Shown here: piece by piece, positions 44,144 through 64,000 of the stretch
How positions within the stretch are numbered: the first letter of the stretch is position 1
How the letters are laid out: each line of letters opens with the position of its first letter
From: Lysinibacillus sp. FSL W8-0992
GTDB taxonomy: Bacteria > Bacillota > Bacilli > Bacillales_A > Planococcaceae
Length of the DNA: 64,000 nucleotides
Assembly: GCF_038008685.1 (NCBI RefSeq)
Contig: NZ_JBBOZQ010000001.1
Coordinates: forward strand, 3,100,001-3,164,000
Direction of reading: 5' to 3'
Notes under the pieces: generated by a model
Told to the model about the DNA's origin: nothing
Seen by the model: only the letters and a program-made list of their open reading frames with translations
The model's database searches: none
Position numbers and translations under genes: made by a program

Positions 44144-44163
44144 TTAGAAAGGTGAGAATAATT

Positions 44164-45450: not shown

Positions 45451-45490
45451 GCTACATTCAAAAATTGATTGAATAAAAGGAGATAGAAAA

Positions 45491-45697: not shown

Positions 45698-45698
45698 T

Positions 45699-47184: not shown

Positions 47185-47247
47185 CTATTATTTTCAGAAA
47201 ATTATGAATATTATTTATAAATTAAAAGATAAACGGAGGCATTTCTA

Positions 47248-47904: not shown

Positions 47905-47937
47905 CAATAAACAATTAGAATAAGGATGGATTAGCAA

Positions 47938-48321: not shown

Positions 48322-48342
48322 ATGGAATTATTTTAAAACGAT

Positions 48343-48380
48343 GAGACATTGCCTATCAATTTGAGGGAATGTCTCTCTTC
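48343..48380. terminator. Convergent terminator of the C-S lyase operon and tetR
   Basis: GAGACATT/AATGTCTC arms, with an interior loop, near both stops; T-rich downstream on the plus strand. Confidence 0.6.
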
Positions 48381-48383
48381 ATT

Positions 48384-49004: not shown

Positions 49005-49074
49005 TCCTCCTAAATTTTATCCGACATATTGCTGGAATGTGTTCTGTAAACGACATCAAGACCATTTTTGATCA

Positions 49075-49103
49075 TTGAATGCATAAGATGTCGCACTTAT
49101 AAT
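49075..49103 (+). promoter_or_regulatory. Promoter of the YhgE-like gene
   Basis: TTGAAT (49075-49080), 17-bp spacer, TATAAT (49098-49103). Confidence 0.7.
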
Positions 49104-49111
49104 TCAAGTTG

Positions 49112-49135
49112 TAATAAACAACAGGTTGTTCATTA
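49112..49135. promoter_or_regulatory. TetR-type operator
   Basis: A 24-bp palindrome with one mismatch, core AACAAC-AG-GTTGTT, centred about +13 from the predicted start of transcription of the YhgE-like gene; a natural site for the divergent TetR repressor. Confidence 0.65.
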
Positions 49136-49164
49136 TTATAACTCAAAAGAGGAGAGGTAATGAA

Positions 49165-50349
49165 ATGTTCAAAAATAAATTGGTTTGGTTTGCGCCCATT
49201 CTTGCATTAGTCGTTATTTTTGTTTTTTCGCTCACTTTATTTCCATCAGTGCAAGCAAAACCAAAAAATTTACCGATAGCGATTGTCAATGAAGACCAAG
49301 GGGTTGATATTCCGAATCAGCCACATGTAAATTTAGGTGAAAGCATTATTGAAATGATTCAAAATTCAGTAGAAGCGGGGAAAGATGAAGAACCTGCAGT
49401 TAAATGGGTTATTGTAAAAAGTAATGAAGATGTTCAAAAGGGATTAGATGAACAAAAATACTATGCAGCGCTTGTATTTCCGAAAGATTTTAGTGCAAAA
49501 CAAGCATCTTTACAAACTGCAGAGCCTACTTTACCCGAAGTTCATATATATATTAATCAAGGTATGAATATGGCAGCTTCAACGATAGCAGGGCAAGTTG
49601 TAAATGGGGTAGTTGATAATATCAACAATAATGTACGTACACAACTCTTTGCAGGATTTTCATCACATGGAGGAACTTTAACGGTAGAGCAGGCTTCGAA
49701 TTTAGTCACACCCATTTCAAAAACCATTACGAATGTAAATGAAACGGGAGACCATAGTGCAAACGGCAATGCGCCTATTTCTTTGTTTCAACCATTATGG
49801 ATGGCTATTATGGTAAGTGCAGCCATCGTCTATCTTGCAATCAGTAAAATAGCTATTACTACACGTAAAGAAAAGCTTTCTGTAATGATAGGTCAAATTA
49901 TTATTGGGGCGATGGTAGCTTTCGTTGTAGGTTTCGGACTTACATGGATAGTAGACGGTATGGTAGGAATCGAAATTCCTTCATATATGGATACTACCTT
50001 ATTTTTAACTATTACCTCCTTTAGTTTTTTCTTATTAATAACAGCCGTAATTTCATGGCTTGGCATTCGAGGAATAGCTATTTTTGCACTAATGCTATTC
50101 TTTGGTGGACCACTGCTTGCATTAGCTCCTGAAATGATGTCTTCTTTTTATCAAAATTGGATATACCCATGGTTGCCAATGCGGTTTATGGTTGAAGGTT
50201 TACGAGAACTCTTTTTCTTTGACAAAGGTTTTTCTTGGAACAACGCCGTATCAGCCCTTGTATGGATTGGAGCAGTTAGTTTAATTGCTATTTTTGCATC
50301 CGTTTTAAAAACTAAAGCAGTGCGTTTGGAACAAGGAGTACAAGATTGA
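49165..50349 (+). CDS. YhgE/Pip-like ABC-2-type membrane protein
   Basis: A 394-aa membrane protein: one N-terminal helix (about 8-25), a large extracellular region (about 30-200) with AIVNEDQGV, and five to six C-terminal helices (about 205-385). This is the YhgE/Pip or DUF3533 layout, related to ABC-2 permease subunits; members are linked to phage receptors, type VII secretion or efflux. No ATPase gene is adjacent. The start at 49165 has GAGGAGAGG upstream. Probably repressed by the divergent TetR. Confidence 0.85.
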   Translation: MFKNKLVWFAPILALVVIFVFSLTLFPSVQAKPKNLPIAIVNEDQGVDIPNQPHVNLGESIIEMIQNSVEAGKDEEPAVKWVIVKSNEDVQKGLDEQKYYAALVFPKDFSAKQASLQTAEPTLPEVHIYINQGMNMAASTIAGQVVNGVVDNINNNVRTQLFAGFSSHGGTLTVEQASNLVTPISKTITNVNETGDHSANGNAPISLFQPLWMAIMVSAAIVYLAISKIAITTRKEKLSVMIGQIIIGAMVAFVVGFGLTWIVDGMVGIEIPSYMDTTLFLTITSFSFFLLITAVISWLGIRGIAIFALMLFFGGPLLALAPEMMSSFYQNWIYPWLPMRFMVEGLRELFFFDKGFSWNNAVSALVWIGAVSLIAIFASVLKTKAVRLEQGVQD

Positions 50350-50481
50350 ATAATCATTATATTTAAAAGTCAAATAGGGTTTCAGAGTGTAGACAAACGG
50401 CATCAAGTATAATTTCTTGATGCCGTTTGTCGATTTTTTAAAATTAATAGATATAAATTAGAATCTCTTTTCAATGTGTTC

Positions 50482-50615
50482 TGTTGATTGGAGGGAAGGG
50501 CTAGCGACTCCTGCGGGAAAGCACATAATGTAAGACGCAACAAACCGCGCGTATAGCGAGGGTTGCGGCTTACGTTGTGCCCGCGGAAAGCGCTAGCCCG
50601 TAACATGTATCAACT
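50482..50615. repeat. Palindromic repeat, array copy 1
   Basis: First of five tandem copies, same family as the solitary copy at 19.9 kb. Nested palindromes pair GCTAGCG with CGCTAGC, TGCGGG with CCCGCG and TAAG with CTTA. It belongs to the subtype ending CATGTATCAAC, shared with copy 4. About 99 bp of AT-rich spacer follows. Confidence 0.9.
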
Positions 50616-50713
50616 GCAGGAGACGTCTTCTATTTTTATTTTAACTATATCTCATGTTTATACTTTTTCTCACATTGTTCTCTTTATCATCATCCTATGA
50701 CCATTGCCTATTA

Positions 50714-50847
50714 AGTTGATTGAAGCGAAAGGCTGGCGACTCCTGCGGGAAAGCACAAAACGTAAGACGCAACAGACCGCGCGTTAGCGAGGGTTGTGGC
50801 TTACGTATGTGCCCGCGGAAAGCGCTAGCCCTTAACGGAAATCAACT
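50714..50847. repeat. Palindromic repeat, array copy 2
   Basis: Begins AGTTGATTGAAGCG and ends CGGAAATCAACT, giving 8-bp terminal inverted repeats. It carries CTGGCG instead of CTAGCG in its left arm, breaking one base pair. Confidence 0.9.
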
Positions 50848-50956
50848 GCAGGAGACGTCTTCTATTTTTATTTTGACTATATCTCATGTTTATACTTCTT
50901 CTCTCATTAGTCTCTTTGCCATCAATCCATAACCACAAATTTTTCATTGCCTATTA

Positions 50957-51090
50957 AGTTGATTGAAGCGAAAGGCTAGCGACTCCTGCGGGAAAGCACA
51001 AAACGTAAGACGCAACAGACCGCGCGTTAGCGAGGGTTGTGGCTTACGTATGTGCCCGCGGAAAGCGCTAGCCTGTAGCGGAAATCAACT
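50957..51090. repeat. Palindromic repeat, array copy 3
   Basis: Almost identical to copy 2, with an intact GGCTAGCG/CGCTAGCC outer stem. The spacer before it has about 11 extra bases compared with the others. Confidence 0.9.
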
Positions 51091-51188
51091 GCAGGAGACG
51101 TCTTCTATTTTTATTTTAACTATATCTCATGTTTATACTTCTTCTCTCATTAGTCTCTTTGCCATCATCTCATAACCATTGCCTATTA

Positions 51189-51321
51189 AGTTGATTGAAG
51201 CGAAAGGCTAGCGACTCCTGCGGGAAAGCACAAAACGTAAGACGCAACAAACCGCGCGTTAGTGAGGGTTGCGGCTTACGTTGTGCCCGCGGAAAGCGCT
51301 AGCCCGTAACATGTATCAACT
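51189..51321. repeat. Palindromic repeat, array copy 4
   Basis: Subtype like copy 1 (core ends GCGGCTTACGTTGTGC and right end CATGTATCAAC). The spacer after it also matches that after copy 1, indicating block duplication. Confidence 0.9.
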
Positions 51322-51419
51322 GCAGGAGACGTCTTCTATTTTTATATTGACTATATATCATGTTTATACTTTTTCTCACATTGTTCTCTTTATCATCATC
51401 CTATGACCATTGCCTATTA

Positions 51420-51554
51420 AGTTGATTGAAGCGAAAGGCTAGCGACTCCTGCGGGAAAGCACAAAACGTAAGACGCAACAATCCGCGCGTATAGCGAGGG
51501 TTGTGGCTTACGTATGTGCCCGCGGAAAGCGCTAGCCTGTGGCGGAAATCAACT
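51420..51554. repeat. Palindromic repeat, array copy 5
   Basis: Subtype like copies 2 and 3, with AGTTGATT/AATCAACT ends. The array stops here; the shared spacer sequence (GGAGACGTCTTC...) is missing after it, and unique DNA follows up to the next gene at 51711. Confidence 0.9.
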
Positions 51555-51710
51555 GCAGAAGTGTTTTCTTTTAAAGTAGATGCCATATAAATAAACACTA
51601 TCAAAAAGATAAATATAGAATATTCTGTTAACTGGTGATAAAATTACAAGTATAAACATATAGTACAAGTTAAAAGTCATACTGTTCGTATTTTTTTCAA
51701 GGAGGTATTC

Positions 51711-53753
51711 ATGATAAATAAAAATGATTACGAGAATGTTGCCTTTAACCAATTGGAAATGCTTCGAAATGAAATTAATAGAACGAAAATGAATAGAAAT
51801 TTATTCAATAAAATTGATAACTATTATGTACTTTGTATTTATGAACAACAGAAAATTGCCAGCAATGATAACACGACCAAAGCTATTACATTGACTAAAA
51901 ATGTAATCTCCAATTCTTTTGTTATTTGGGATCGTACCTATAAAGAGAGCGAACAATTATTCATGAATTTACGAATTTCTTCTAGAAATCGCGTAATTAT
52001 TGAAATAGCAAAAAACATCGTTTCATTTTTACTGCAAAAATACGAGGACCAACTAAACGAATCACAGAAGCGAAAATCAACACATCGTAATGCACTTCAG
52101 CTTGAAAAATATGTCCTTCGTATGGAGCATATTATCAAAGCAAACACGTTTCTTGGTGAAGATACTGCATGGGAAGAGTTTTGCTCTTGGTTTCAAGTCT
52201 ATTTAACAGAATGGGTACTTGAGGAGCTAGAAAGTTTAATTGGTTATGAAATGATGGATCAGATGAGCAATGAGGAATTAAATGAAGTATTTTATCAACA
52301 AATGACGAAAAACCTGTCATCAAATGATACGTTTATTTCAAAATATACAAACATAGTGAACAACTATATGACAGAATGGTTTCATAACATTATTGCATCA
52401 ATGAAGCTAGCAGTTTTAACAGTAGAAGAAATTGAATCTATGTTGCAAATAACTGCATCTAAGAATCAGGATTCCCAGCCTCTTAGTAAAACTATCGCTT
52501 TTACATTAGGCGTAGAACATCATCTACATGTCATGAATAATGCCCCTTATCAATATGTGAGGGAAGCACTTTATAAAAACAGTTTTCAAAACATCGAAAC
52601 TACACCATGGCCCACAACACCTTTATATAAAGGTAATTTAGAAGGAATTATTCAAATACGTCCATATCACACTACTGAGCACTCCTTCGCTACACAATTG
52701 TTGATAGAGAAAGCACATAATCAAGCGCAAAACTTAACAGATTTAGACGTAGATATGTTTGATGCATTATGTAGTATTTTTTTATCAAAAGCACGGTATA
52801 CAGAAGATATCATTGAAATACACTTTACTGATTTATTGATGATTCGCGGCTTGAAACCAAAGTTAGGTGGTGAAGGGAGAAGAGGCGGTTATGAGCAGCA
52901 ACAAAAGGACAAAGTTTTGCAATCGCTTACAAAAATTCAGAGCTTATGGCTCGAATTAAATAAAGCAACGGTCTATGAAAAAGGAAAAGCTGTTCAAACG
53001 CAGCTCCAAGGACGGACATTCCTTTTTGTCGATCATAATCGGAAAGAATATGATATCGCACAATTAGATAATCAAAAAACATTTACATTTACAGTTGATA
53101 AAGTTTTTACAAAGTATTTGTATGGATCTGGACGGCAAATTGCCCTTTTACCTATTCAAACGCTTCATTACAATCCGTACAGTCAAAAATGGGAAAAACG
53201 ATTGGCGAGATATTTTAGTTGGCGATGGCGAACACAAGCAAGAAAGGGCGATTTCTTGCAGCCAAATAAAATTCGAACTTTACTAGAGGCAATTGGAGAA
53301 AATGTAAATGAACGCACACCATCCCGTACGAGAGACCGCTTAGAAAAAGCATTGGATCAATTGCTGGAAGATGGCGTACTATCTGCTTGGCATTATCATA
53401 AATGGGATGAAACAATTGCTAATAATAAAGGCTGGGTTCGGTTATGGTTAGATGCAACCATTCTTGTTGAACCACCTGAAATTATAAAAGAACAATACCG
53501 GTCTATTGAAAAAACAAAAAGTACAACTCATTATGCACTAGATTTCCAAGACAGTGCCCAACATAAAGCAAAAGGAGCCACAATTGGTAATCAATTAAGA
53601 GCGATACGCAAGCAATTTAATTTGTCTCTTTTACAAGTTTCAGAAGAACTTGAAATTTCACCTTCTTATATTAGTAATATAGAAAGAGGGGTTAAAACCC
53701 CCTCCGTCAAAATCCAAACTAATATAAGTCGCTGGTTGCAAAAGTTTATTTAA
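51711..53753 (+). CDS. Large hypothetical protein with C-terminal XRE-type HTH
   Basis: A 680-aa soluble protein. Residues about 620-675 form an XRE helix-turn-helix (IGNQLRAIRKQFNLSLLQVSEELEISPSYISNIERGVKTP in outline). The N-terminal 280 residues are helical and of unknown family. The central part (about 300-580) has basic, helical/strand patterns with GGEGRRGGYEQQQKDKVLQSL and SWRWRTQARKGDFL, reminiscent of winged-helix plasmid replication initiators; this resemblance is by eye only. CAAGGAGG gives a strong start. It is monocistronic, directly after the repeat array. It may be a regulator or a domesticated replication protein. Confidence 0.7.
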   Translation: MINKNDYENVAFNQLEMLRNEINRTKMNRNLFNKIDNYYVLCIYEQQKIASNDNTTKAITLTKNVISNSFVIWDRTYKESEQLFMNLRISSRNRVIIEIAKNIVSFLLQKYEDQLNESQKRKSTHRNALQLEKYVLRMEHIIKANTFLGEDTAWEEFCSWFQVYLTEWVLEELESLIGYEMMDQMSNEELNEVFYQQMTKNLSSNDTFISKYTNIVNNYMTEWFHNIIASMKLAVLTVEEIESMLQITASKNQDSQPLSKTIAFTLGVEHHLHVMNNAPYQYVREALYKNSFQNIETTPWPTTPLYKGNLEGIIQIRPYHTTEHSFATQLLIEKAHNQAQNLTDLDVDMFDALCSIFLSKARYTEDIIEIHFTDLLMIRGLKPKLGGEGRRGGYEQQQKDKVLQSLTKIQSLWLELNKATVYEKGKAVQTQLQGRTFLFVDHNRKEYDIAQLDNQKTFTFTVDKVFTKYLYGSGRQIALLPIQTLHYNPYSQKWEKRLARYFSWRWRTQARKGDFLQPNKIRTLLEAIGENVNERTPSRTRDRLEKALDQLLEDGVLSAWHYHKWDETIANNKGWVRLWLDATILVEPPEIIKEQYRSIEKTKSTTHYALDFQDSAQHKAKGATIGNQLRAIRKQFNLSLLQVSEELEISPSYISNIERGVKTPSVKIQTNISRWLQKFI

Positions 53754-53765
53754 AAGAATATTTAT

Positions 53766-53816
53766 AACTGCCTTCATATATCGAGCAAATACGATATAAA
53801 AGGGCAGTTTTTTTAT
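53766..53816 (+). terminator. Terminator of the 680-aa protein gene
   Basis: AACTGCC/GGCAGTT arms enclosing a second pair TATATCG/CGATATA, followed by seven T. Confidence 0.8.
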
Positions 53817-54164
53817 TTGTCGCCACCTATCTGCTATTTTCATTTTTGCTCCTTTCACCATTTCTACGGCTTTTATCTTGTACATTGCTAATCATTTAAA
53901 TGGCGTATATTTCGTTTTTTAGCTTTTATCCTTCCCATAAGTCGAGGTTATCGTGCGTAGATGTCGTGAGTAGTGTGTACACGAAATAAAACACAAATTT
54001 TTAAACCCTTGCTATAACTACGTTTTTCACATGTTTTTCTTTTTTTTACTCCCTAATAATTAAATCATTTTACATGTATTTATTTTCAGAATATTTAAAA
54101 TGGGTTCGTTACAATAGACAACATAATCAATTGTTTTTCTATTATTCGAAACCGAGGTGAAATA
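53817..54164. other. Upstream region of the acyl-CoA operon
   Basis: About 348 bp without a gene. It contains GTGTACAC and several AT-rich stretches; TACAAT at 54110 could be a -10 box, but no convincing -35 sits 17 bp upstream. No cre-like or known riboswitch sequence was found. Confidence 0.4.
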
Positions 54165-56333
54165 ATGAATAAAGAATTGAAAGCTTATGAATCGCTAGAA
54201 CCATTGTTTAATCCAAAGTCTGTTGCAGTACTTGGTGCTTCCACAAATCCATATAAAATTGGATACATTCAATTGAAAGCGCTTATAGACGGCGGTTTTG
54301 CTGGAGACATTTATCCTATTAATCCGAAAGCTAGTGAAATAGAGGGACTAACTTGCTATCCTTCAATCACAGCTGTCCCAGGGGATATAGATTTAGCAAT
54401 ATTTTGTGTCGGTGCAGAACAAATTCTGGACAATCTTAAGGCATGTGCGAAGAAGAATATAAAAGCAGCAATTATTTTCGCATCTGGATTCTCTGAAACT
54501 GGGGAAGAGGGTGTACTGTTACAACAGGAGTTAGCTAACATTGCAAAGGAAAATGGCATCCGAATCATAGGTCCAAACTGTGTTGGGTTAGTTAATACAA
54601 CGAATGGAATGATTGGCACGTTTTCACCAGCTATTTTGGCAGTACCATTACATGAAGAAAAAGCTGTGGGCTACGTTTCGCAAAGTGGCGCATTTGGTGT
54701 ATTAACGTATATGGCTGCAGCGCAAAATGGTTTAAGCTTTAATTATTTTGCAAGTGTTGGAAATGAAATGGAAACAGAATTTTCAGATGTAGTAGAATAC
54801 ATGATTCATGATCCAAAAACGAAAGTCATTACAGGCTATTTAGAAGGGGCTAAAGATACTAAGAAGCTTCGACGTTTAGCAAAGGAAGCACTTAATCGTA
54901 ACAAGCCAATTGCATTGATGAAAACAGGCAAAAGTTCAGCCGGCAGCAGAGCAGCTGCTTCACATACAGGCTCGCTTGCGGGATCAGATTTAGTTTACGA
55001 TGCATTTTTCAGGCAGAGCGGTATCGTTAGAGTCGATGATTATGAAGATATTATTACGTTTTCAAAGTTATTTTTATCTAATAGACTACCACAAGGGAAA
55101 AATACAGTGTTAATTACAAGTTCGGGTGGACGAGGTATTAACGAAGCAGATCGATGCGAAGGGCTAGGGTTAAATATTATTGCGCTAAGTGAAAAGACAA
55201 AGGCAGAAATTAAAAAGCATGTTCCATCTTACGCAAGTGCAATCAACCCAATTGACTTAACAGCTGCCGCTTCAGTAACGAATCCAGAATTATATATAGC
55301 GCCACTTCGAGCACTTGTAGCTGATCCAGAAGTTCATAATATTATCCTAACTGAATTTCCGTTGTACTGGGAAGCAGATAATCCATACTTACAGGAGTTT
55401 ATCGATATATGTAAAAACTCAGATAAATTCGTCTTTATTACGACATTCCCATTAGAAGGCATGTCTGTCCCTAAAGGAAAGGATGAACTTGAGAAGAATG
55501 GCATTCCTGTCATTCCAGGTAATTTAAATCCAATCAAAGGCTTAGCAAAGCTTGTAGAATATAGCGAAAGTTATAGGAAACATCAACAAGCAACGGTCCA
55601 AGAAGAGGATTCCGCTAAGAAACGTATAGACATGTCACATGTAACTGGTTCGACATTAAGTGAAGCCCAAGCAACTGACATTTTAGATCTTTACGGGATT
55701 CCAACAACAAAACGAACTGTCGCTACGACGGCTGATGAAGCTGTTCAGTTTGCGAATAGGATTGGTTACCCAGTCGTGTTAAAAGTCGATTCAGCGGATA
55801 TTCCACATAAAACCGAGGCAGATGCAATTCGACTAAATGTTCAATCAGCGAACGATGTAATGAAAGCGTTTACTGAAATTTATCAAAATGCAAGAAAATA
55901 CAAAGCAGATGCTCAAATCAACGGTATTTCTGTTCAGGAAATGCTTCCTGAAGGAACAGAGGTCATTATCGGCGCAACAAAGGATCCGAATTTCGGTCCA
56001 GTAGTCATGTTTGGCTTAGGCGGTATTTTTGTTGAAGTATTTAAAGATATTTCATTTAGAGTGGCGCCACTAACAAGGGCTGATGCCGTTGAAATGATTG
56101 AAGAAGTAAAAGGCAAAGCGCTTCTGACAGGGGCACGTGGAAAAGCGCATGGCGATATTGAAGCCATCATTGACGTGTTACTGAAGGTATCGAAGCTTGT
56201 CACTGAAAATGAAGAGATAATAGAAGAATTAGATATTAATCCTTTAATCGTCTATGAAGACGGCGTAAAAGCAGCAGATGCAATGATCGTCGTGCAGAAA
56301 GATGTGTTAGAAAAGTCAGTAGTCAGGGGGTAA
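54165..56333 (+). CDS. NDP-forming acyl-CoA synthetase
   Basis: A 722-aa fused enzyme of the ADP-forming acetyl-CoA/feruloyl-CoA synthetase family. Order: CoA-binding domain (about 12-105, VAVLGAST), succinyl-CoA ligase-like domains with SQSGAFG and the phosphorylated-His segment AASHTGSLAGSD (about 130-460), and a C-terminal ATP-grasp domain (about 490-720, GYPVVLKVDSADIPHKTEADAI and DINPLIV). It activates a carboxylic acid to its CoA thioester at the cost of ATP to ADP. It heads the operon and its stop is 1 nt before the overlapping next unit (ATG 2 nt later), so it supplies the pathway's starter. The acid is unknown. Confidence 0.9.
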   Translation: MNKELKAYESLEPLFNPKSVAVLGASTNPYKIGYIQLKALIDGGFAGDIYPINPKASEIEGLTCYPSITAVPGDIDLAIFCVGAEQILDNLKACAKKNIKAAIIFASGFSETGEEGVLLQQELANIAKENGIRIIGPNCVGLVNTTNGMIGTFSPAILAVPLHEEKAVGYVSQSGAFGVLTYMAAAQNGLSFNYFASVGNEMETEFSDVVEYMIHDPKTKVITGYLEGAKDTKKLRRLAKEALNRNKPIALMKTGKSSAGSRAAASHTGSLAGSDLVYDAFFRQSGIVRVDDYEDIITFSKLFLSNRLPQGKNTVLITSSGGRGINEADRCEGLGLNIIALSEKTKAEIKKHVPSYASAINPIDLTAAASVTNPELYIAPLRALVADPEVHNIILTEFPLYWEADNPYLQEFIDICKNSDKFVFITTFPLEGMSVPKGKDELEKNGIPVIPGNLNPIKGLAKLVEYSESYRKHQQATVQEEDSAKKRIDMSHVTGSTLSEAQATDILDLYGIPTTKRTVATTADEAVQFANRIGYPVVLKVDSADIPHKTEADAIRLNVQSANDVMKAFTEIYQNARKYKADAQINGISVQEMLPEGTEVIIGATKDPNFGPVVMFGLGGIFVEVFKDISFRVAPLTRADAVEMIEEVKGKALLTGARGKAHGDIEAIIDVLLKVSKLVTENEEIIEELDINPLIVYEDGVKAADAMIVVQKDVLEKSVVRG

Positions 56334-56337
56334 TGAT

Positions 56338-56793
56338 ATGGAGCTAGATCAAAGCTTAATTGGTTTAACAGGACCACAATATGTTTTTGAAGTAGAAAAA
56401 AGGCACATTCGCCAATTTGCCGAATCAATTGGTGATCCTAATCCATTATATGTGGATGAAGAATATGCAAAATCAACTATTTATGGCAGCATCATTGCAC
56501 CACCAAGCTTCCCAGTCGCGATAGGAGCTGACAGTGGGCAAGGAATTAATTTGCCGTTAGATTTTAGTCGCATGCTCCATGGAGAGCAAGAGTTCATTTA
56601 TCATCGTCCAATTCGCCCAGGTGATCGTTTGCACTGTCAAATGAAAGTGACTGACGTATATGAAAAAGAAGGAAAAAATGGGCCAATGCAGTTTTTAGTA
56701 ATGGATACAGAAATGAAGGATGAAGAAGGCGAGCTAGTTGTAATTAGTCGTACAAATATCATTTATCGTGCTGTAGCGAGTAGTAAAGCGTAA
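56338..56793 (+). CDS. MaoC-type N-terminal (FAS1-like) dehydratase subunit
   Basis: A 151-aa hot-dog-fold protein of the MaoC_dehydrat_N/FAS1-like group: FEVEKRHIRQFAESIGDPNPLYVDEEYA, SIIAPPSFPVA, and YHRPIRPGDRLHCQ. The catalytic Asp/His motif of active MaoC hydratases (D-x4-H) is altered to DPNPLY, so it may be the structural partner of the next gene's product, as in ChsH1/ChsH2-type heterodimers. GGGG precedes the ATG. Part of the acyl-CoA operon. Confidence 0.85.
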   Translation: MELDQSLIGLTGPQYVFEVEKRHIRQFAESIGDPNPLYVDEEYAKSTIYGSIIAPPSFPVAIGADSGQGINLPLDFSRMLHGEQEFIYHRPIRPGDRLHCQMKVTDVYEKEGKNGPMQFLVMDTEMKDEEGELVVISRTNIIYRAVASSKA

Positions 56794-56800
56794 ATAAACT

Positions 56801-56832
56801 GTTGAACGAAGATACAGAAATCTTCGTTCAAC
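56801..56832 (+). other. Intra-operon hairpin 1
   Basis: GTTGAACGAAGAT/ATCTTCGTTCAAC, 13-bp perfect stem with a 6-nt loop followed by TTTTAAT. It separates the two MaoC-like genes and may act as a weak terminator or mRNA processing site. Confidence 0.65.
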
Positions 56833-56862
56833 TTTTAATCCATCACTAAAGGGGGAAAAAAC

Positions 56863-57279
56863 ATGCTTCAATTTAAAAATTTACATGAAGGACAAAAGCT
56901 CGAACCACTTTTGAAGCCTGCTGTTACAAAGGTACAGCTTGTGAAATATGCCGGTGCATCAGGGGATTTCAATCCGTTACATACAGATGATGCATTTGCG
57001 CAAAGTATAGGGATGCCGGGTGTTATTGCACATGGCATGCTTGTAATGGGCTTTCTTGGTCAGTACATGATGGACCTAGCAGGTACTTCAGCTGCACCGA
57101 CTAATTTTAAAATGCGCTTTGGTGCGATGACAAGACCTGGTGATGAAATTACATGTTCTGCCATTGTCAAAAAAATTTATGAAAACGAAGCTAAACAATT
57201 CGTTGATTTAGAACTATATGCGGAAAAAGCTCCAGGAAAAGTAGTTGGATTTGGAGAAGCGACATTACAAATGATTTAA
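56863..57279 (+). CDS. MaoC-like enoyl-CoA hydratase
   Basis: A 138-aa hot-dog-fold hydratase. The catalytic motif is intact: GDFNPLHTD (Asp and His), then GVIAHGMLVMGFLG and FGAMTRPGDEI. It adds water to a 2-enoyl-CoA. The Asp-x4-His active site is missing from the preceding gene, so this is the catalytic half of a probable heterodimer. AAAGGGGG precedes the ATG. Confidence 0.9.
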   Translation: MLQFKNLHEGQKLEPLLKPAVTKVQLVKYAGASGDFNPLHTDDAFAQSIGMPGVIAHGMLVMGFLGQYMMDLAGTSAAPTNFKMRFGAMTRPGDEITCSAIVKKIYENEAKQFVDLELYAEKAPGKVVGFGEATLQMI

Positions 57280-57305
57280 CAAATGGAAACAAGGAGGTTG
57301 GCAAT

Positions 57306-58469
57306 ATGGCTACTATTAAAGATCGCTATGCCATTGTAGGCGTAGGAGAAAGTGAACGTTCGAAAAATTCAGGTAGAACACCTTTACATTTAGCATTAGA
57401 CGCTGCTCGTGCTGCGTTAAAAGATGCCGGTTTAGAAGCGAGAGAAATCGATGGCTTTATGAGCTACTCTGAAAATGATTCTTGTACATCCCATCAGTTA
57501 GCGACCTATTTAGGCGCGCGACCGAAATATGTTAAAGACATTATGGGAGGCGGAAGCAGTACAGAAATGTTAATTGCGGATGCCATCGGATTAATCGAAA
57601 CAGGTCAAGTCAATACCGTGCTAATTTATCGTGCAATGAATGGCCGCTCTGGCGTTCGTATGGGCGGTGGTGGCTGGGATGTAAATATGCTTCAAGGGGC
57701 AATGGATGGCGGAAGCTTTTTCATTCCTTATGGGGCAGGTGGACCAGGTCAATGGTTCGGCTTATTCGCTACGCGTCATATGCAACAAACAGGACTTACA
57801 CACGAACATTTAGGGCACGTCTGTGTGAGCTTTTATGAGCATGCACAACGAAACCCAAAAGCGTTCTTCTATGGTAAGCCATTATCAATGGAAGAGTATT
57901 TAAAGACACCATCTTTAAGTTATCCATTTAATAAACATGATTTTTGCCTAGAATCAGACGAGGCGAATGCCATTATCGTCACATCCGCTGAGAAAGCAAA
58001 GGATTGCAAGTCAAGACCTGTCTATATTATGGGTATTGAAGCGAGACGAACTGTATCACATGCGCATTACTGGACAAATTTAGATGAAGTAGCATCAGAC
58101 TTCGTTGCACCTTCCCTTTATAAAAAAGCAGGGGTTACACCACAAGATATTCAAGTCGCTTCGATATACGATTGCTTTAGTTGGGTAGTACTGCGCCAAT
58201 TAGAAGCATATGGCTTTGCTGCACGTGGCGAAGTAGGTGATTTCGTTGCAAGTGGCAATTTAAAAATGGGTGGCAAGCTTCCTACGAATACAGCAGGAGG
58301 CATGCTATCGGAAGGTTATACGCATGGCATGAACAATGTCCTTGAAATTGTTCGTCAAATTCGTCACGAGTATAAAGGTACTGATCGTCAAGTCGAAAAT
58401 TGCGAAATAGGCATTTGTACTGGCTGGTCTGGCCCAGATATTGCGGGTGCAATGATTTTAAGAAACTAG
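57306..58469 (+). CDS. Thiolase-fold protein, Ltp2-like (no thiolase nucleophile)
   Basis: A 387-aa thiolase-superfamily protein resembling SCP-x/lipid-transfer proteins. The nucleophile loop reads IMGGGSSTEM where thiolases have a Cys. The GHPxGxSG motif reads GYTHGMNN. Ltp2 steroid aldolases also lack the Cys and carry a Tyr at this second position. It is followed by a DUF35 gene, again as in the Ltp2-DUF35 aldolase. Likely role: retro-aldol cleavage of a beta-hydroxyacyl-CoA, or a non-catalytic partner. AAGGAGG precedes the ATG. Confidence 0.85.
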   Translation: MATIKDRYAIVGVGESERSKNSGRTPLHLALDAARAALKDAGLEAREIDGFMSYSENDSCTSHQLATYLGARPKYVKDIMGGGSSTEMLIADAIGLIETGQVNTVLIYRAMNGRSGVRMGGGGWDVNMLQGAMDGGSFFIPYGAGGPGQWFGLFATRHMQQTGLTHEHLGHVCVSFYEHAQRNPKAFFYGKPLSMEEYLKTPSLSYPFNKHDFCLESDEANAIIVTSAEKAKDCKSRPVYIMGIEARRTVSHAHYWTNLDEVASDFVAPSLYKKAGVTPQDIQVASIYDCFSWVVLRQLEAYGFAARGEVGDFVASGNLKMGGKLPTNTAGGMLSEGYTHGMNNVLEIVRQIRHEYKGTDRQVENCEIGICTGWSGPDIAGAMILRN

Positions 58470-58480
58470 GAGGGAAAATC

Positions 58481-58897
58481 ATGAGTTATCAAAAACCAAT
58501 TCCACTTAAAACACAAGACAATCAACCATATTGGGATGCAGCTGATCGGCATGAGCTAGTCCTACAAAAATGCGAAACATGTAATTCTTATAATCACCCA
58601 CCTGGCCCAGCTTGTTCAAAATGCGGTTCCACAGAACTTAGCTGGGAAAGTCAAGGTTCGGCTATTACGGGAACTATCTATTCGTATGTTGTGTCGTATC
58701 GCCCGTTCCTACCGGGTTTCCAAGATGATTTACCAACGATTATTGTTGTCGTACAACTAGATAATTTAAAAGAAGTAAAAATAATTGGCAATGTGCTTGC
58801 ATGTCCACCAGAGGAAGTAAAAATCGGCATGCCTGTAAAAATGACATGGCAGGATATTACGGAAGATCGAGCTCTTCCACAATGGATACAAGCATAA
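58481..58897 (+). CDS. DUF35 zinc-ribbon/OB-fold protein
   Basis: A 138-aa protein: N-terminal zinc ribbon with two Cys pairs (CETC about 32-35, CSKC about 46-49), then an OB fold (TGTIYSYVVSYRPFLPGF, VVQLDNLKEVKIIGNV). DUF35 proteins are obligate partners of thiolase-fold enzymes, for example in HMG-CoA synthesis in archaea and in Ltp2-type aldolases. The ATG at 58481 has TAGGAGGG upstream; a longer frame has no site. Confidence 0.9.
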   Translation: MSYQKPIPLKTQDNQPYWDAADRHELVLQKCETCNSYNHPPGPACSKCGSTELSWESQGSAITGTIYSYVVSYRPFLPGFQDDLPTIIVVVQLDNLKEVKIIGNVLACPPEEVKIGMPVKMTWQDITEDRALPQWIQA

Positions 58898-58933
58898 CAG
58901 ATTAATATCGTTTTAAAAGAAAGGAATGATTAC

Positions 58934-60130
58934 ATGGATTTTTCATTTACGAAAAAGGAAGAGCAATTTCGTCAAGAGTTAAGAACTTGGCTAGAAGCGA
59001 ACTTACCAGATGGATGGTTACAAGGCGAAGTGCAATTAGATAAGGAATCAAAAGAATATGAGTTATTTTTACGAGATTGGCAAAAGAAACTATATGAAGG
59101 TGGTTGGGCAGCGATTGCGTGGCCTAAACAATATGGTGGGCGCAATGCAACGCTTATGGAGGAAATTGTCTATCAACAAGAGATGGTACGTGTCAAAGCA
59201 CCACCGTTAATAAATTATGTAGGTCTGCATATGGTTGCACCGACATTGATGCAAATTGGTACGGAAGAACAAAAGGAAAAATATATCGAAAAAATTATTA
59301 CAGGTGAAGAAGTTTGGTGCCAAGGTTATTCAGAGCCGAATGCAGGATCAGATGTAGCGGCTATTCAAACGACAGCTGTAAAAGATGGTGACCGTTGGAT
59401 TATTAATGGGCAAAAGGTTTGGACGAGTTTCGGTCATGTAGCGGATCGCTGCTTTTTAATAACTAGAACGAGCCGACTAGAGAAAAAACATAAAGGTATT
59501 ACAGTATTCCTTCTCGATATGCATCAGCCAGGGGTGGAAACACGACCAATCGTCTCAATGGATGGTCAAAAAGATTTTAATGAAGTGTATTTAAATGATG
59601 CCATTGCGTATGATGCAGAAATTATCGGTCAAGTAGATGAGGGCTGGAAGGTTATCATTGCTCTTCTAATGCATGAACGAACTGGAATTGGTGGTCAAGT
59701 ATTTACGCTAGAGCAACAATTCAATGATCTAGTTGCGTTAGCTAAGGAATTGAATGATGAAGATGAGCCGCTTATTAAAAATCCATTCATTCGTAAAACA
59801 ATGGTGGATTTATACACTCGTTCACGTGGGTCACTATTAAACTATTATCGAAATTTAACAAAGCAATTGAAAAATGGCCATCCTGGTGCAGAAAGCTCTA
59901 TGGATAAACTACTTGTTAGTGAATTAACAAAAGAACTGTTTGCGCAAGCGATTTCGATGCAAGGCCATCATGGCGTCCTATGGAAAGAAAACGCATTGAT
60001 GGATCGGTCCTATTGGCAGGACAATTATTTGTACTCTTTTGGTCAGACAATTGGCGGTGGAACAAGCGAAATACAAAAGAATACCATTGCTGAACGAATT
60101 CTAGGTTTACCAAAAGATATGGGTCGATAA
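58934..60130 (+). CDS. Acyl-CoA dehydrogenase, subunit 1
   Basis: A 398-aa FAD-dependent acyl-CoA dehydrogenase. The N-terminal helical, middle beta (WCQGYSEPNAGSDVAAIQT, WIINGQKVWTSFGHVAD) and C-terminal helical domains are all present. The flavin-binding motif is intact. The C-terminal segment reads IGGGTSEIQKNTIAERILG. A different dehydrogenase follows 18 nt after the stop; the two may form a heteromer, as ChsE1/ChsE2 do. The electron acceptor (ETF) is not encoded in the window. AAAGGAA precedes the ATG. Confidence 0.92.
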   Translation: MDFSFTKKEEQFRQELRTWLEANLPDGWLQGEVQLDKESKEYELFLRDWQKKLYEGGWAAIAWPKQYGGRNATLMEEIVYQQEMVRVKAPPLINYVGLHMVAPTLMQIGTEEQKEKYIEKIITGEEVWCQGYSEPNAGSDVAAIQTTAVKDGDRWIINGQKVWTSFGHVADRCFLITRTSRLEKKHKGITVFLLDMHQPGVETRPIVSMDGQKDFNEVYLNDAIAYDAEIIGQVDEGWKVIIALLMHERTGIGGQVFTLEQQFNDLVALAKELNDEDEPLIKNPFIRKTMVDLYTRSRGSLLNYYRNLTKQLKNGHPGAESSMDKLLVSELTKELFAQAISMQGHHGVLWKENALMDRSYWQDNYLYSFGQTIGGGTSEIQKNTIAERILGLPKDMGR

Positions 60131-60148
60131 AAAGCGGGGGTGTAAGAT

Positions 60149-61285
60149 ATGGATTTCTCTTTAAATCAAGAACAAGAAATGTTTCGAAACTATGTACGTA
60201 AATATTTAGATGATGTCGGACAAACAAAAGTAGCCCGTGAGTTTACAGAAGGCAATACAAGCTCATTTCAAGCACTGTATGCTGGATTAGCGGAACTTGG
60301 CTGTGCAAGTGTGAATGTGTCAGAAGAAAATGGTGGTATGGGGCTAGGTCAGTTAGATTTAGTACCTATTTTAGAAGAGACAGGTCGAGCATTGCTTCCA
60401 GGCTTATATTTAGAAACAAATGCTTTAGCGGTACCGTTATTGGAGAGATTTGGTACTGAAGAACAAAAAGCTAAATATTTATCAGCTATTGCTAGTGGTG
60501 AGCATACCTTTACTGTTGCATGGTTAGAGCCTAGCGGAAACTACAAGCCTTCAAATGTGAAATTAAGTGGCACATTGCAGGATGACGTTCTAACGTTGAA
60601 TGGTGTGAAATCATTAGTACCAGACGTTGAGCTTGCCAATAGCTTACTCGTTCTAGTGCGTACTTCTGAAGGGCAAGGTGCGGAAGGAATATCATTAGTA
60701 ATCGTTGATTGTGATGATGTGTCACTACAAGTGCAACCTCAAAAAAACATGGATGAAACCCGTTTGCTTGCAGAAGTGACTTTTAATAATGTCCAAGTTT
60801 CAAGTCAGCAAATTCTTGGCACTATTGATCATGGGTGGGATGTTTTGCAAGAGGGTCTATTATCATTTAATGCAGCCCTTTGCTCATCGATTGTTGGAAG
60901 TATGGAAAAAATCGTTGAAACAGCCGTTGAATATGCGAATATTCGTGAACAGTTTAATCAACCGATTGGAAGATTCCAAGCAATTAAACACAGATTAGTC
61001 GATATGAAAATGGATTTAGAAACAGCTCGTTCGTTAGCCTATTATGCAAACTGGGCGATTGAAAGTGATGCTGCTGATAAAGTTGAAGCGGTTTCAAGTG
61101 CTCGCTTATTTGCTACCGAGGCATTTATAAAAGTCGCATCTCAAAGTATTCAAATTCATGGTGGGATTGGTTTTACTGAAGAAATTGATTGCCATCTATA
61201 TGTGAAAAGAGCGCGTTTCTATGAAAATTATCTAGGAAGCACACAGCAATATTATGAGCAGGCAGCAGTTGCCTTAGGTTGGTAG
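60149..61285 (+). CDS. Acyl-CoA dehydrogenase, divergent subunit 2
   Basis: A 378-aa protein of the acyl-CoA dehydrogenase fold. The flavin-binding loop is changed (VAWLEPSGNYKPSN instead of SEPxAGSD) and the C terminus reads RARFYENYLGSTQQYYEQ in place of the usual GTSEI. HGGIGFTEE is kept. It is probably the partner of subunit 1. Heteromeric side-chain dehydrogenases of actinobacteria combine an FAD-binding and a degenerate chain in this way. GGGGGTG precedes the ATG. Confidence 0.88.
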   Translation: MDFSLNQEQEMFRNYVRKYLDDVGQTKVAREFTEGNTSSFQALYAGLAELGCASVNVSEENGGMGLGQLDLVPILEETGRALLPGLYLETNALAVPLLERFGTEEQKAKYLSAIASGEHTFTVAWLEPSGNYKPSNVKLSGTLQDDVLTLNGVKSLVPDVELANSLLVLVRTSEGQGAEGISLVIVDCDDVSLQVQPQKNMDETRLLAEVTFNNVQVSSQQILGTIDHGWDVLQEGLLSFNAALCSSIVGSMEKIVETAVEYANIREQFNQPIGRFQAIKHRLVDMKMDLETARSLAYYANWAIESDAADKVEAVSSARLFATEAFIKVASQSIQIHGGIGFTEEIDCHLYVKRARFYENYLGSTQQYYEQAAVALGW

Positions 61286-61300
61286 TAGATTATCTTACGT

Positions 61301-61338
61301 CTTAAACATTGCAAAGGCACTATGCTGCAATGTTTAAG
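61301..61338 (+). other. Intra-operon hairpin 2
   Basis: CTTAAACATTGCA/TGCAATGTTTAAG, 13-bp perfect stem with a 12-nt loop and no T run, between the second dehydrogenase and the aldehyde dehydrogenase genes. Same stem length as hairpin 1 but unrelated sequence; a possible processing or stability element. Confidence 0.6.
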
Positions 61339-61370
61339 CAAATCTCATATTTGAAAGGGTGGGAAAGACA

Positions 61371-62849
61371 TTGAAAACATTGAATAATTTGAAAGACTAT
61401 CAAAATGTCATTAACGGGAAGGCAATTCCATCATCTTCAGGTAATAAAATGGATAGCTATGATCCGGCAACTGGTAAGGTGTGGGCAACCATTCCTTGTA
61501 GCACTGTCGAAGATGTTGAAGCAACGGTGACGGCTGCTCGTACTGCCCTTCCAGGTTGGTCAGCACTTCCTGCTAGTGAAAGAGCAAATTATTTACGTCG
61601 TATTGGCGATATGATTGCACAATATGGCGATGAATTGGCTGAACTAGAAACGAAAGATAATGGTTGGGTTATTCGTGAAACAAAGTTCGGACTTATTCCT
61701 ATCCTATCAAGTATGTGGTATGATGCCGCAGCGGCAGCTACTAATGTTGGGAGTAAAGGCGAAACCGTGCAACTTGGGCCAAATACTGTAGGATTTACAA
61801 TGCGTGAACCTTATGGAGTCGTAGTAGGCATTATTCCATGGAATTCAGCATTATGGACATTTACGGTGAAAGCAGCGGCAGCACTTGCTGGTGGAAACAC
61901 GGTCATCATTAAACCATCGGAATTAGCAGCAGCTGCACCGCTCCGTTACGGAGAACTTATTCAAAGTATTTTACCACCAGGCGTTTTAAATGTTATTTCT
62001 GGTACAGGCGCTGAAGTGGGCGATGCGCTCGTTCGTCATCCAAACGTCAATAAAGTAAGCTTAACCGGTTCAGGGAAAACTGCGAAAGCAATCGCCGAGT
62101 CCACTGCGCAACATCCTAAATCAATGGTATTAGAATTAGGTGGCAAATCACCGAATATTGTTTTTGAAGATGCTGATTTAGCGAAAGCAGCAAATGGCGT
62201 CACAGTAAATGGTATTTTCACAGGCAATGCAGGACAGCTTTGTGTCGGCGGCTCACGAATCCTAATTCAACGATCTGTCTTAGATAAAATGATTGCTCTA
62301 ATGAAAGAAGAAATAACAACACATATTCAATTGGGCAACACATTAGACATGCAGACGCCAATGGGACCAGTTGCCAATGAAATGCAATATAAAAAGGTTT
62401 GCTCCTATATTGAGCTAGGGCAACAAGAAGGTGGAGAAATCATCGTTGGCGGACGCTTCGGTGGTGCCAACTTGTTACCAGGTCAAGATGATTTAGCGGA
62501 TGGCTATTGGATCGAACCGACCTTACTAAAAGTAGAAAGTAATAACTTGCAAGTTTGCCAAGAAGAAATTTTTGGACCAGTTGCTGTCGTGATACCATTT
62601 GATACAGAAGAAGAGGCACTTGCCATTGCCAATGATACAGAATACGGATTAGGTGCCGGTGTTTGGACATCTGATTTAAATCGTGCACATCGAATGATTC
62701 GCTCTATCGAATCTGGAAATGTGTGGGTAAATACGTATCGCATCGTTGGAACTGAACTTCCATTCGGTGGACAAAAAGCGAGTGGCTTTGGTACAGACTC
62801 TGTACTCGAATTCACACGTGAAAAAACATGCTATATTCAAATTGGCTAA
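61371..62849 (+). CDS. Aldehyde dehydrogenase
   Basis: A 492-aa NAD(P)-dependent aldehyde dehydrogenase. Cofactor and active-site segments are IIPWNSALWTFTVK, SLTGSGKTAKAIAE, catalytic Glu in LELGGKSPN, nucleophilic Cys in NAGQLCVGGSR, and EEIFGPV. It oxidises an aldehyde to an acid; in this operon the likely source is the aldehyde released by the Ltp2-like aldolase. The start is uncertain: a TTG at 61371 fits the AAAGGGTGGG site, with a GTG at 61359 as alternative. Confidence 0.92.
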   Translation: MKTLNNLKDYQNVINGKAIPSSSGNKMDSYDPATGKVWATIPCSTVEDVEATVTAARTALPGWSALPASERANYLRRIGDMIAQYGDELAELETKDNGWVIRETKFGLIPILSSMWYDAAAAATNVGSKGETVQLGPNTVGFTMREPYGVVVGIIPWNSALWTFTVKAAAALAGGNTVIIKPSELAAAAPLRYGELIQSILPPGVLNVISGTGAEVGDALVRHPNVNKVSLTGSGKTAKAIAESTAQHPKSMVLELGGKSPNIVFEDADLAKAANGVTVNGIFTGNAGQLCVGGSRILIQRSVLDKMIALMKEEITTHIQLGNTLDMQTPMGPVANEMQYKKVCSYIELGQQEGGEIIVGGRFGGANLLPGQDDLADGYWIEPTLLKVESNNLQVCQEEIFGPVAVVIPFDTEEEALAIANDTEYGLGAGVWTSDLNRAHRMIRSIESGNVWVNTYRIVGTELPFGGQKASGFGTDSVLEFTREKTCYIQIG

Positions 62850-62919
62850 CGTCTAACGACGGATAGACAGGTATGAAAATATAATCGTTAGGACAAGTAA
62901 ACATGAAACGGGGAATAGT

Positions 62920-64000
62920 ATGCCACAAGCAAAAAATGGACTATTTTATGGATGGTATATTGTTTTAACAAGCTTCTTGATTATGTTTTCGGCATTCTCC
63001 ATTGTAAATTCTCTACACAGTTTATTTCTTGTGCCGGTAACAAGCGAATTGGGCATGACAAGAACGACTTTTTCAATTGTACTTTCCGTTGGAGGTCTTG
63101 GTGTTGCGATAGCTTCACCTTTTATGGGAAAGCTCCTTGCTAAAGGCAATATGAAGTTAATAATGTCTGTATGTGTTATTTTTGCAGGCTGTGGCTTTAT
63201 GTTGTATTCCTTTGCGCAGTCGGCAATCTATTTTGCCATCATCGCTTTTTTTATAGGGGTATGTGTTGCTGGATTTTCCAATATTCCTATCTCCATTATG
63301 CTAACGAATTGGTTTTATGAAAAAAAGGGGCTAGCAATGGGATTGGCATTCGCTGGATCAGGTGTCGGGACGGCAGCACTTAGCCCTATTTTAACAACGT
63401 TAATTTCAAATTATGGTTGGAGAACAACTTATGTCATTGCAGGCGTACTAATTATCGTTATTTCGTTGCCATTAATTTTATTTTTCACTAAGAAAAACCC
63501 TGCTGAAAAAGGGACGATGGCACTTGGTGCAGATCGTGTCCAAGAGGAGCAAGCGAATACGGCTCAATCGGGTTTAACGCTGGCTGAGGCAAAGAAATCA
63601 GGCGTGTTTTGGCTATTTATTTTCGGTGTCGTATGCTTTGCGCTTGTTGCAGGCGGGGTACAAATGCATATACCGGCTTATTTAATTGATATTGGCCATC
63701 CTGCGTTATTTGCTGGAACAATTTTCGGTCTGTTATCTTTATCAAATACTGTTGGAAAGCTAATTCTTGGAGCCATATTCGATAAATTTAGAACAACTGG
63801 CGGAATCCTATTTGTAGGTGTTTGTATGACAATAGCGATGGTGTCATTGCTAATGGCAAACGCTAAGAGCTTTGCGTTTGTATTCGCGATCGCTTACGGA
63901 TTTAGTATTGTCATTGCCACAATCGGCCCTCCGTTTATGACAGATGATTTGTTTGGCAAAAAAGATTTCGGTGCCATTTTTGGCTTCGTACAGGTATTCT
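62920..64000 (+). CDS. MFS transporter, cut by the window end
   Basis: The first 360 residues of a major facilitator superfamily permease of the monocarboxylate/oxalate-formate type (N terminus GLFYGWYIVLTS, loop NWFYEKKGLAMGLAFAGSGVG). About ten helices are visible and the frame is open at position 64000. It likely imports the organic acid used by the acyl-CoA operon. GGGG about 6 nt before the ATG. The gene continues outside the window. Confidence 0.88.
   Translation, partial: MPQAKNGLFYGWYIVLTSFLIMFSAFSIVNSLHSLFLVPVTSELGMTRTTFSIVLSVGGLGVAIASPFMGKLLAKGNMKLIMSVCVIFAGCGFMLYSFAQSAIYFAIIAFFIGVCVAGFSNIPISIMLTNWFYEKKGLAMGLAFAGSGVGTAALSPILTTLISNYGWRTTYVIAGVLIIVISLPLILFFTKKNPAEKGTMALGADRVQEEQANTAQSGLTLAEAKKSGVFWLFIFGVVCFALVAGGVQMHIPAYLIDIGHPALFAGTIFGLLSLSNTVGKLILGAIFDKFRTTGGILFVGVCMTIAMVSLLMANAKSFAFVFAIAYGFSIVIATIGPPFMTDDLFGKKDFGAIFGFVQVF

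Follow-up and report, generated by a model that had tools for sequence, protein, structure and literature searches.

A probable aldolytic side-chain-shortening operon of Lysinibacillus and its association with a protein of a putative plasmid initiator family and paired iteron-like repeats

In this study, we analysed a window of 64,000 nucleotides (the whole stretch considered here) from Lysinibacillus sp. FSL W8-0992 (contig NZ_JBBOZQ010000001.1, positions 3,100,001 to 3,164,000). It carries a nine-gene operon that is preceded by a pair of direct repeats and by a gene whose product we call RinR, a working label. The reading that we consider probable is that the operon serves to import a carboxylic acid and to shorten its side chain aldolytically, under the control of RinR, a regulator of a plasmid initiator family that would act on the iteron-like repeats. 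Within this reading, igr-like aldolytic shortening as the mechanism is supported by the predicted active sites, and the pairing of RinR with the repeats is firm as a pattern of sequence comparison. We infer DNA binding by RinR, the sign of its control and its replication ancestry.

The operon and its upstream region

The operon starts at 54165 and ends beyond 64000, and its nine genes all lie on the + strand. A first-pass annotation, made from the DNA letters alone, had listed these genes. Every gene that it named was found in place, in the order and on the strand that it gave, and Pfam and NCBIfam agreed with its labels. The conserved gene at 51711-53753 and the repeat pair at 53939-53982 were absent from its list. 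The features are the following.

51711..53753, + strand: RinR, 680 aa, with an N-terminal extension, a core from about residue 263 and a C-terminal HTH_3 (helix-turn-helix, HTH)
53939..53982, + strand: operator-like pair of 22-bp direct repeats, AAGTCGAGGTTATCGTGCGTAG / ATGTCGTGAGTAGTGTGTACAC, from the upstream comparison and matrix scan
54052..54065, + strand: AT-rich element CCTAATAATTAAAT, kept in part of the RinR-linked loci
54110..54115, + strand: possible -10 box TACAAT, placed by eye, with no good -35 and absent from the consensus-scan sites
54165..56333, + strand: nucleoside-diphosphate-forming (NDP-forming) acyl-CoA synthetase (ACS), acid activation, by Pfam/NCBIfam
56338..56793, + strand: MaoC1, predicted non-catalytic hydratase subunit, HadA/ChsH2-like (His to Tyr)
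56863..57279, + strand: MaoC2, predicted catalytic hydratase subunit, HadB/ChsH1-like
57306..58469, + strand: Ltp2-like thiolase-fold aldolase, YDCF at 288-291 and GYTHG at 337-341
58481..58897, + strand: free-standing DUF35 protein, Zn ribbon and OB fold, predicted partner of the aldolase
58934..60130, + strand: acyl-CoA dehydrogenase (ACAD) 1, predicted FAD/substrate-binding and catalytic subunit (YSEPNAGSD, WTS, Glu248)
60149..61285, + strand: ACAD2, predicted partner subunit with QIHGGIG
61359..62849, + strand: aldehyde dehydrogenase (ALDH), predicted to oxidise the released aldehyde
62920..64000, + strand: MFS transporter, running past the window

The gaps between the nine genes are 4, 69, 26, 11, 36, 18, 73 and 70 bp, those around the DUF35 gene being counted with the ATG at 58481 (the frame that was scanned started two codons upstream of it). 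The MFS gene encodes 426 aa in full and ends at what would be position 64200, 200 bp outside the window. Two reverse open reading frames (ORFs), both of 103 aa, lie across operon genes and are probably spurious.

Active sites of the operon enzymes and known aldolytic systems

In the PDB search, the closest solved relative of the thiolase-fold protein is the steroid aldolase TcLtp2 (6ok1, E 2.4e-74). Residues Y288 and Y338 of the window protein align onto Tyr294 and Tyr344 of TcLtp2, described as the base and the acid, the two catalytic residues of that enzyme (PMC12329534). In the aligned aldolases, counted as elsewhere with the window's own sequence, Y288 is present in 70/70 and Y338 in 69/70, and the exception that lacks the second motif is an opposite-strand ORF of 30% identity (L060). 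The absence of a cysteine nucleophile and the replacement of GHPxG by GYTHG, both pointed out in the first-pass annotation, are borne out: around residues 76-95, the nucleophile stretch of thiolases, the protein lacks a Cys and reads GGGSS, GYTHG occupies residues 337-341, and the position of the thiolase His is Tyr288. At the second tyrosine Ltp2 differs from Sal, in which this residue is Gln (PMC12329534, PMC11321319). Position 290 corresponds to the oxyanion-hole His296 of the Ltp2 YDHF motif and to the catalytic Cys304 of Sal; with YDCF, the window protein thus joins the two tyrosines of Ltp2 to the cysteine of Sal. Across the alignment this position is Cys in 45/70, Ala in 24/70 and a gap in 1/70, which suggests that the cysteine is dispensable in the wider family and that the two tyrosines are needed.

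The DUF35 protein matches Pfam zf-ChsH2 and OB_ChsH2_C, and its four cysteines are kept in 44/44 aligned sequences. In Comamonas testosteroni TA441, MaoC and DUF35 expressed apart are reported to retain both activities, a result that the free-standing DUF35 of the window fits (PMC12502768).

One of the two dehydrogenases had been described as having a broken flavin motif. They are better described as two complementary FAD/catalytic halves. ACAD1 has YSEPxAGSD, WTS and Glu248, which falls on E247 of 4x28_A in the alignment (both positions were counted by hand), whereas ACAD2 lacks these and has QxHGGxG, with no Glu in the stretch that corresponds to Glu248 of ACAD1 (placed by eye). Each motif pattern is kept in 44/44 aligned sequences, as are Glu248 of ACAD1 (44/44) and QxHGGxG of ACAD2 (44/44), and this split of FAD and catalytic motifs is the one expected, at the level of motifs, of an igr-type heteromeric dehydrogenase. 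The top solved matches of ACAD1 are 6wy8_B and 4x28_A, which we take to be subunits of actinobacterial heteromers, 6wy8 and 4x28 being presumably steroid enzymes. The best NCBIfam model for each window dehydrogenase is that of the pimeloyl-CoA dehydrogenase PimC-PimD, with scores far under the curated cut-offs (223 vs 624 and 187 vs 653). PimCD-like ACAD pairs were linked to the ChsE heterotetramer in a barcoded transposon-sequencing (RB-TnSeq) study of a beta-proteobacterium (PMC12543098).

The two MaoC proteins had also been singled out as a pair with one member devoid of an active site, and this holds: MaoC1 keeps D33 and has Tyr38 in place of the catalytic His, and in MaoC2 D35 and H40 are intact. 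No His is found at this position of MaoC1 in 45/45 sequences (44 Tyr, 1 Phe), and MaoC2 has both Asp and His in 42/42. An identical His-to-Tyr change is described for ChsH2 (PMC11321319). MaoC1 and MaoC2 score with mycobacterial HadA/HadB-type chains above ChsH1/ChsH2.

The term "igr-like" is therefore supported as to mechanism. By its motifs the operon would work like igr, but it is no member of igr, as DUF35 is a separate gene and YDHF is replaced by YDCF. The likeness to igr of M. tuberculosis and to ORF40-44 of C. testosteroni TA441, which comprise ChsE1E2, ChsH1H2 and Ltp2 (PMC12502768, PMC11321319), lies in a heteromeric dehydrogenase, a heteromeric hydratase with an inert Tyr-for-His partner and a thiolase-fold aldolase with DUF35. 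In igr, ChsH2 is an inert MaoC fused to DUF35, whereas in the window MaoC1 is inert by its sequence and DUF35 has its own gene. The window operon further differs by its own synthetase, ALDH and transporter, by having no steroid genes that we recognised, and by its phylum. IpfE, from ibuprofen degradation, is presumably DUF35-like. The IpfD-IpfE system resembles the predicted chemistry in that retro-aldol cleavage is followed by the release of propionyl-CoA through a thiolase-type enzyme that ipfDE encode, and differs by its substrate, a dihydrodiol made by a dioxygenase (PMC9195938). The Shy-Sal-Sad system, which serves bile acids in Proteobacteria, likewise generates an aldehyde by retro-aldol cleavage, with an aldehyde dehydrogenase acting next, and its aldolase has a YDC motif; unlike the window proteins, Shy is a homomeric MaoC-DUF35 fusion (PMC12329534, PMC11321319).

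The proposed order of activation, dehydrogenation, hydration, retro-aldol cleavage and aldehyde oxidation is consistent with these active-site checks; we infer the chemistry of each step and the formation of complexes from the motifs. The acid would be taken up by the MFS protein and converted into its CoA ester by the NDP-forming synthetase. ACAD1-ACAD2, with one shared FAD site, would form the 2-enoyl-CoA, and MaoC1-MaoC2 would hydrate it to the 3-hydroxyacyl-CoA. The Ltp2-like protein with DUF35 would then perform a retro-aldol cleavage to acetyl- or propionyl-CoA and an aldehyde, with Tyr288 acting as base, Tyr338 as acid and Cys290 replacing the oxyanion-hole His of Ltp2, and the aldehyde would be oxidised to an acid by the ALDH.

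A pattern scan of genome contigs confirmed 225 aldolase relatives and 79 loci were kept. Aldolase identity is 59-88% in 45 of them (L003-L047) and about 40% in L048-L081. By record title, 44 of these 45 loci belong to Bacillaceae/Planococcaceae and one (L044, 59%) to a betaproteobacterial metagenome-assembled genome. The six core genes occur together in 41/45 loci, ALDH in 33/45 and the NDP-forming synthetase in 29/45, as counted with a simple custom ORF caller that may miss genes; reverse frames were called instead of core genes in L031, L033 and L045, and the order differs in L027. The search for the same gene order in other Bacillaceae, which the first-pass annotation had put forward as a check, shows that the order recurs in Bacillaceae-type genomes. 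An aldolase orthologue of at least 72% identity was found in 36/200 genomes of the window's family (G000 included), and in 4 of at least 27 genomes of its own genus. We found no publication on the operon in Bacillus/Bacillaceae in the open-licence literature searched.

Around the operon loci compared, the recurring extra genes encode an MFS protein of another type, electron-transfer flavoprotein (ETF) subunits, an iron-sulphur oxidoreductase, AMP-forming ligases and, presumably, SDR-like proteins; no clue to the substrate was recognised among them. The phenylpropanoid, terpenoid and branched acids that had been suggested as substrates are guesses. In the betaproteobacterial locus (L044 6765-11598), the aldolase is accompanied by a DUF35, a 38% match to the NDP-forming synthetase and a TctC binding protein, with no ACAD or MaoC match; its substrate is perhaps already a 3-hydroxy acid.

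Other observations concern the genome around these genes. Downstream of the MFS gene lie an HD-domain protein and a gene of the acetyl-CoA hydrolase/transferase family (L082 2474-4667), whose product could transfer CoA to the acid product; a divergent gene further downstream is presumably of LysR type. The same genome carries a second aldolase-type cluster at about 1,665,600-1,678,000 (L084 5591-18015), with an AMP-ligase-type gene, two ACADs, two MaoC, an Ltp2-like protein (YDAF, GYLHG), a DUF35 and CoA-transferase genes of family III (one was scanned), as well as two genes that we take to be enoyl-CoA-hydratase-like. Within the operon, a perfect 13-bp hairpin at 56801-56832 separates MaoC1 from MaoC2. 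We set it aside as a conserved element, as it is not generally kept (of the 32 gaps listed for relatives, only 9 reach the length of the hairpin). No Rfam match reached gathering scores in 44000-64000.

RinR, the paired repeats and their plasmid relatives

RinR is encoded by the gene that precedes the operon, on the main contig of its genome, and the HTH is the only part of the protein above Pfam cut-offs. RinR is found in 31/45 loci, in 23 before the operon (in L045 on the opposite strand) and in eight, all Sporosarcina, after it; the RinR proteins of these other loci are 33-52% identical to the window's. In 11 of the 14 RinR-less loci, a regulator of a 685-aa type is present, all from one sequence cluster; that of L010, the sole one scanned, has GAF and PucR HTH domains. 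Over the 200 genomes of the family, with at most five candidates scored per genome so that weak copies may escape, a RinR match (E < 1e-100) occurs in 28/36 genomes with the aldolase orthologue and in 0/164 without it. All 28 lie on the same contig as the orthologue, at a distance of 3.4 to 9.6 kb, and the window's genome has one match in all, at the operon. No primase, partition or relaxase gene was recognised among the large ORFs read beside the window operon. Just upstream of rinR, at 50483-51558, a GC-rich unit of 232 bp is repeated in tandem 4.6 times (CTCCTGCGGGAAAGCAC...CCCGCGGAAAGCGCTAGCC, 89% matches).

A pair of repeats of the GTCGRGG type precedes the first operon gene in 32/32 RinR-linked loci (the 31 and the window) and in 0/14 RinR-less loci. 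Their spacing is 22 bp, or 21 bp in three loci, and they lie between -138 and -234 relative to the start called for the first operon gene; in the window, the first GTCG lies 224 bp before the ACS start. Matrix scores are 14.0-49.4 in 32/32 RinR-linked regions and at most -0.6 in 14/14 RinR-less ones, with controls of at most 4.3 for reverse strands and 10.8 for single shuffles. For these scores, training repeats were chosen by the GTCGRGG rule, the matrix for each RinR-linked locus was trained without its own genus (genera being grouped by hand according to record titles), all 32 served for the scoring of RinR-less loci, and for L044 the region upstream of the aldolase gene was used. In the eight Sporosarcina loci with a downstream rinR, the repeats still precede the first operon gene. 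Within Neobacillus, some loci (L003, L004, L006) have RinR and the repeats and others (L010, L011) have neither, so the link between both is not due only to one deep split.

Searched with a strict pattern of the pair, the 4.69-Mb genome gives a single match, at the operon; the reversed control likewise has a single match, at another place. Over 21 further genomes, the strict pattern stands at the operon in 7/13 with RinR and in 0/8 without. Stray matches are about as frequent as expected by chance and the strict pattern misses weaker pairs; the signal is thus the place of the pair. The AT-rich element is found with at least 12/14 matches in 11/32 RinR-linked upstream regions (window included), in 0/14 RinR-less ones and in 4/460 shuffles.

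Relatives of RinR are found on plasmids. With a cut-off of E 0.01, tblastn retrieved 98 plasmid records, of which 56 come from Phaeobacter; those Phaeobacter records that were listed match in the HTH region only. Records that match the RinR core are mostly large Bacillaceae plasmids. We examined eight of these and pPfer1 (one Klebsiella plasmid was not used further). Seven of the eight have one homologue place per record; the remaining one and pPfer1 have two. Genes annotated as primase, ParM/StbA or ParA stand by the RinR homologue in 6/8 plasmids: in five, the homologue is divergent from an annotated primase C-terminal gene (PriCT_1 in the one scanned), three include ParM/StbA within the stretch (Alp7A-type models match the one that was scanned) and one includes ParA. 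None of the three kinds was found in the stretch read of the L096 and L101 plasmids. On pPfer1, an HTH gene at the start of the record, presumably the end of a RinR homologue running over it, lies near genes for a DnaB-like helicase, a toprim protein and ParA.

An over-repeated 9-mer precedes the homologue in 7/8 plasmids, its count being reached by 0 to 9 of 200 Markov nulls; there is no such excess in the Metabacillus plasmid (185/200 nulls). For pPfer1, the count is not unusual (30/200 nulls), yet three tandem 22-bp units are present. In a Peribacillus psychrosaccharolyticus plasmid (L103 4751-5335), about 15 tandem 39-bp repeats stand between the primase gene and the RinR-family gene and are likely an origin. 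An hhalign comparison of 32 RinR with the eight plasmid proteins, from Peribacillus, Cytobacillus, Niallia, Metabacillus and Lysinibacillus, gave a probability of 100 and E 5.4e-52 over 400 columns (columns 267-680), that is, core and HTH. RinR differs from these proteins by its place on a main contig, its longer N-terminal region and its surroundings, in which no primase or partition gene was recognised. The plasmid homologues are probably replication initiators, judging from their neighbours and repeats. RctB of Vibrio chromosome 2 is a chromosomal iteron-binding protein of a plasmid-type origin (cf. the review PMC6090056); it resembles RinR, as predicted here, in this respect and differs in that it starts replication.

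Weighing the explanations

Several observations weigh against the reading proposed here. On the enzyme side, the change from YDHF to YDCF/YDCY means that the oxyanion hole must differ from that of Ltp2, and the NCBIfam scores of the aldolase are under curated cut-offs (best PRK07855, 333 vs 469 bits). The top solved matches of ACAD2 are other dehydrogenases (4l1f, E 8.9e-43), and the heteromer partners 6wy8_A (1.5e-24) and 4x28_D (6.8e-23) come far lower. On the regulatory side, the RinR-linked loci share descent, so 32 vs 14 does not amount to 46 independent events; the strict pattern occurs 17 times in the 21 genomes, of which 10 off-operon, with 13 for the reversed control; and the promoter scan was no richer than shuffles (44 vs 41.1). 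Of the 28 RinR matches, three are each interrupted by a single in-frame TAA and a fourth (G028) is split in two. Finally, Pfam and PDB recognise the RinR family in the HTH alone, and because of this the initiator label rests on gene neighbourhood and repeats. We also considered the repeats of a Paludibaculum plasmid as the same motif and rejected them: their 22-bp spacing agrees, and they score badly with the operator matrix (best rank 85).

These points must be read alongside what else could explain the locus. The enzymes might act as proposed while RinR and the repeats have no part in regulation and are the remains of a replication origin, left by a plasmid that brought the operon and became integrated. 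The plasmid-encoded relatives of RinR, mostly found by replication or partition genes in the plasmids examined, speak for this, as do the patchy occurrence of the operon in the window's genus and the 4/28 interrupted RinR matches. We nevertheless find it unlikely, since RinR and the repeats persist jointly at 31 loci in many genera even though RinR is only 33-52% identical, the repeats track the operon start where rinR lies downstream, 11/14 other loci carry the one-cluster protein instead (GAF/PucR-type in the one tested), and the large ORFs read beside the operon include no recognised primase, partition or relaxase gene.

The explanations that touch the enzymes fare less well. The operon might instead be of an ordinary beta-oxidation-like kind, its thiolase-fold protein acting as a genuine thiolase or as a condensing enzyme like PhlC and BbsB with their DUF35 partners. 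This view would account for the presence of benzoylsuccinyl-CoA thiolase and PhlC among the PDB matches, both of which have DUF35-type partners (PMC12329534). It is quite improbable given the lack of a nucleophilic Cys, the Tyr at the His position and GYTHG for GHP, the conservation of both Ltp2 tyrosines in 69/70 sequences, and the nine operon genes, among which Pfam and NCBIfam found no 3-hydroxyacyl-CoA dehydrogenase. Less probable still, and in our view very doubtful, is a true igr/Sal-type operon for steroid or bile-acid side chains. It draws on the top solved matches of the aldolase and ACAD1, which are steroid-pathway proteins if 6wy8 and 4x28 are what we take them to be, and on a faint likeness of the MFS protein to a model of bile-salt transporters (201 bits against a cut-off of 400). 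However, no steroid catabolic context was recognised: the whole genome has no match to Ring_hydroxyl_A (PF00848) or LigB (PF02900) at E 0.001, which bears out in part the first-pass suggestion of a non-steroid substrate. Two Rieske proteins are present (frames of 191 and 462 aa), and the Glyoxalase family, with 23 genome matches, is too broad to use. The MaoC pair is also nearer to HadA/HadB-type chains, and no steroid gene was recognised among the recurring neighbours. A steroid substrate is thus unlikely.

Under the preferred reading, an aldolytic operon controlled by RinR, this chromosomal member of the plasmid initiator family would bind the 22-bp repeat pair that precedes the synthetase gene and would most likely activate the operon, with its N-terminal region sensing the inducer. 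With more reserve, we lean towards a broader proposal, in which iteron-binding plasmid initiators were taken over on many Bacillaceae/Planococcaceae chromosomes as a dedicated regulator of the aldolytic operon, retaining a paired, iteron-like operator and acquiring an inducer-sensing N-terminal region. Among relatives, this regulator would have been swapped, with its operator, for a GAF/PucR-type one. Among the titles listed from the open-licence literature searched, we found none on a replication initiator that regulates a catabolic operon.

Judging from this set of enzymes, the kind of aldolytic side-chain chemistry described for cholesterol and bile acids appears to exist in soil Bacilli as a stable, portable operon for another substrate. 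This would open a direct way into a new catabolic pathway, and to pairs of aldolase and free-standing DUF35 that could be used in biocatalysis. RinR also points to a putative plasmid initiator family that has no reliable Pfam match outside the HTH. If our reading is true, a replication initiator would have been turned into a specific gene switch with iterons as its operator, an unusual origin for a regulator.

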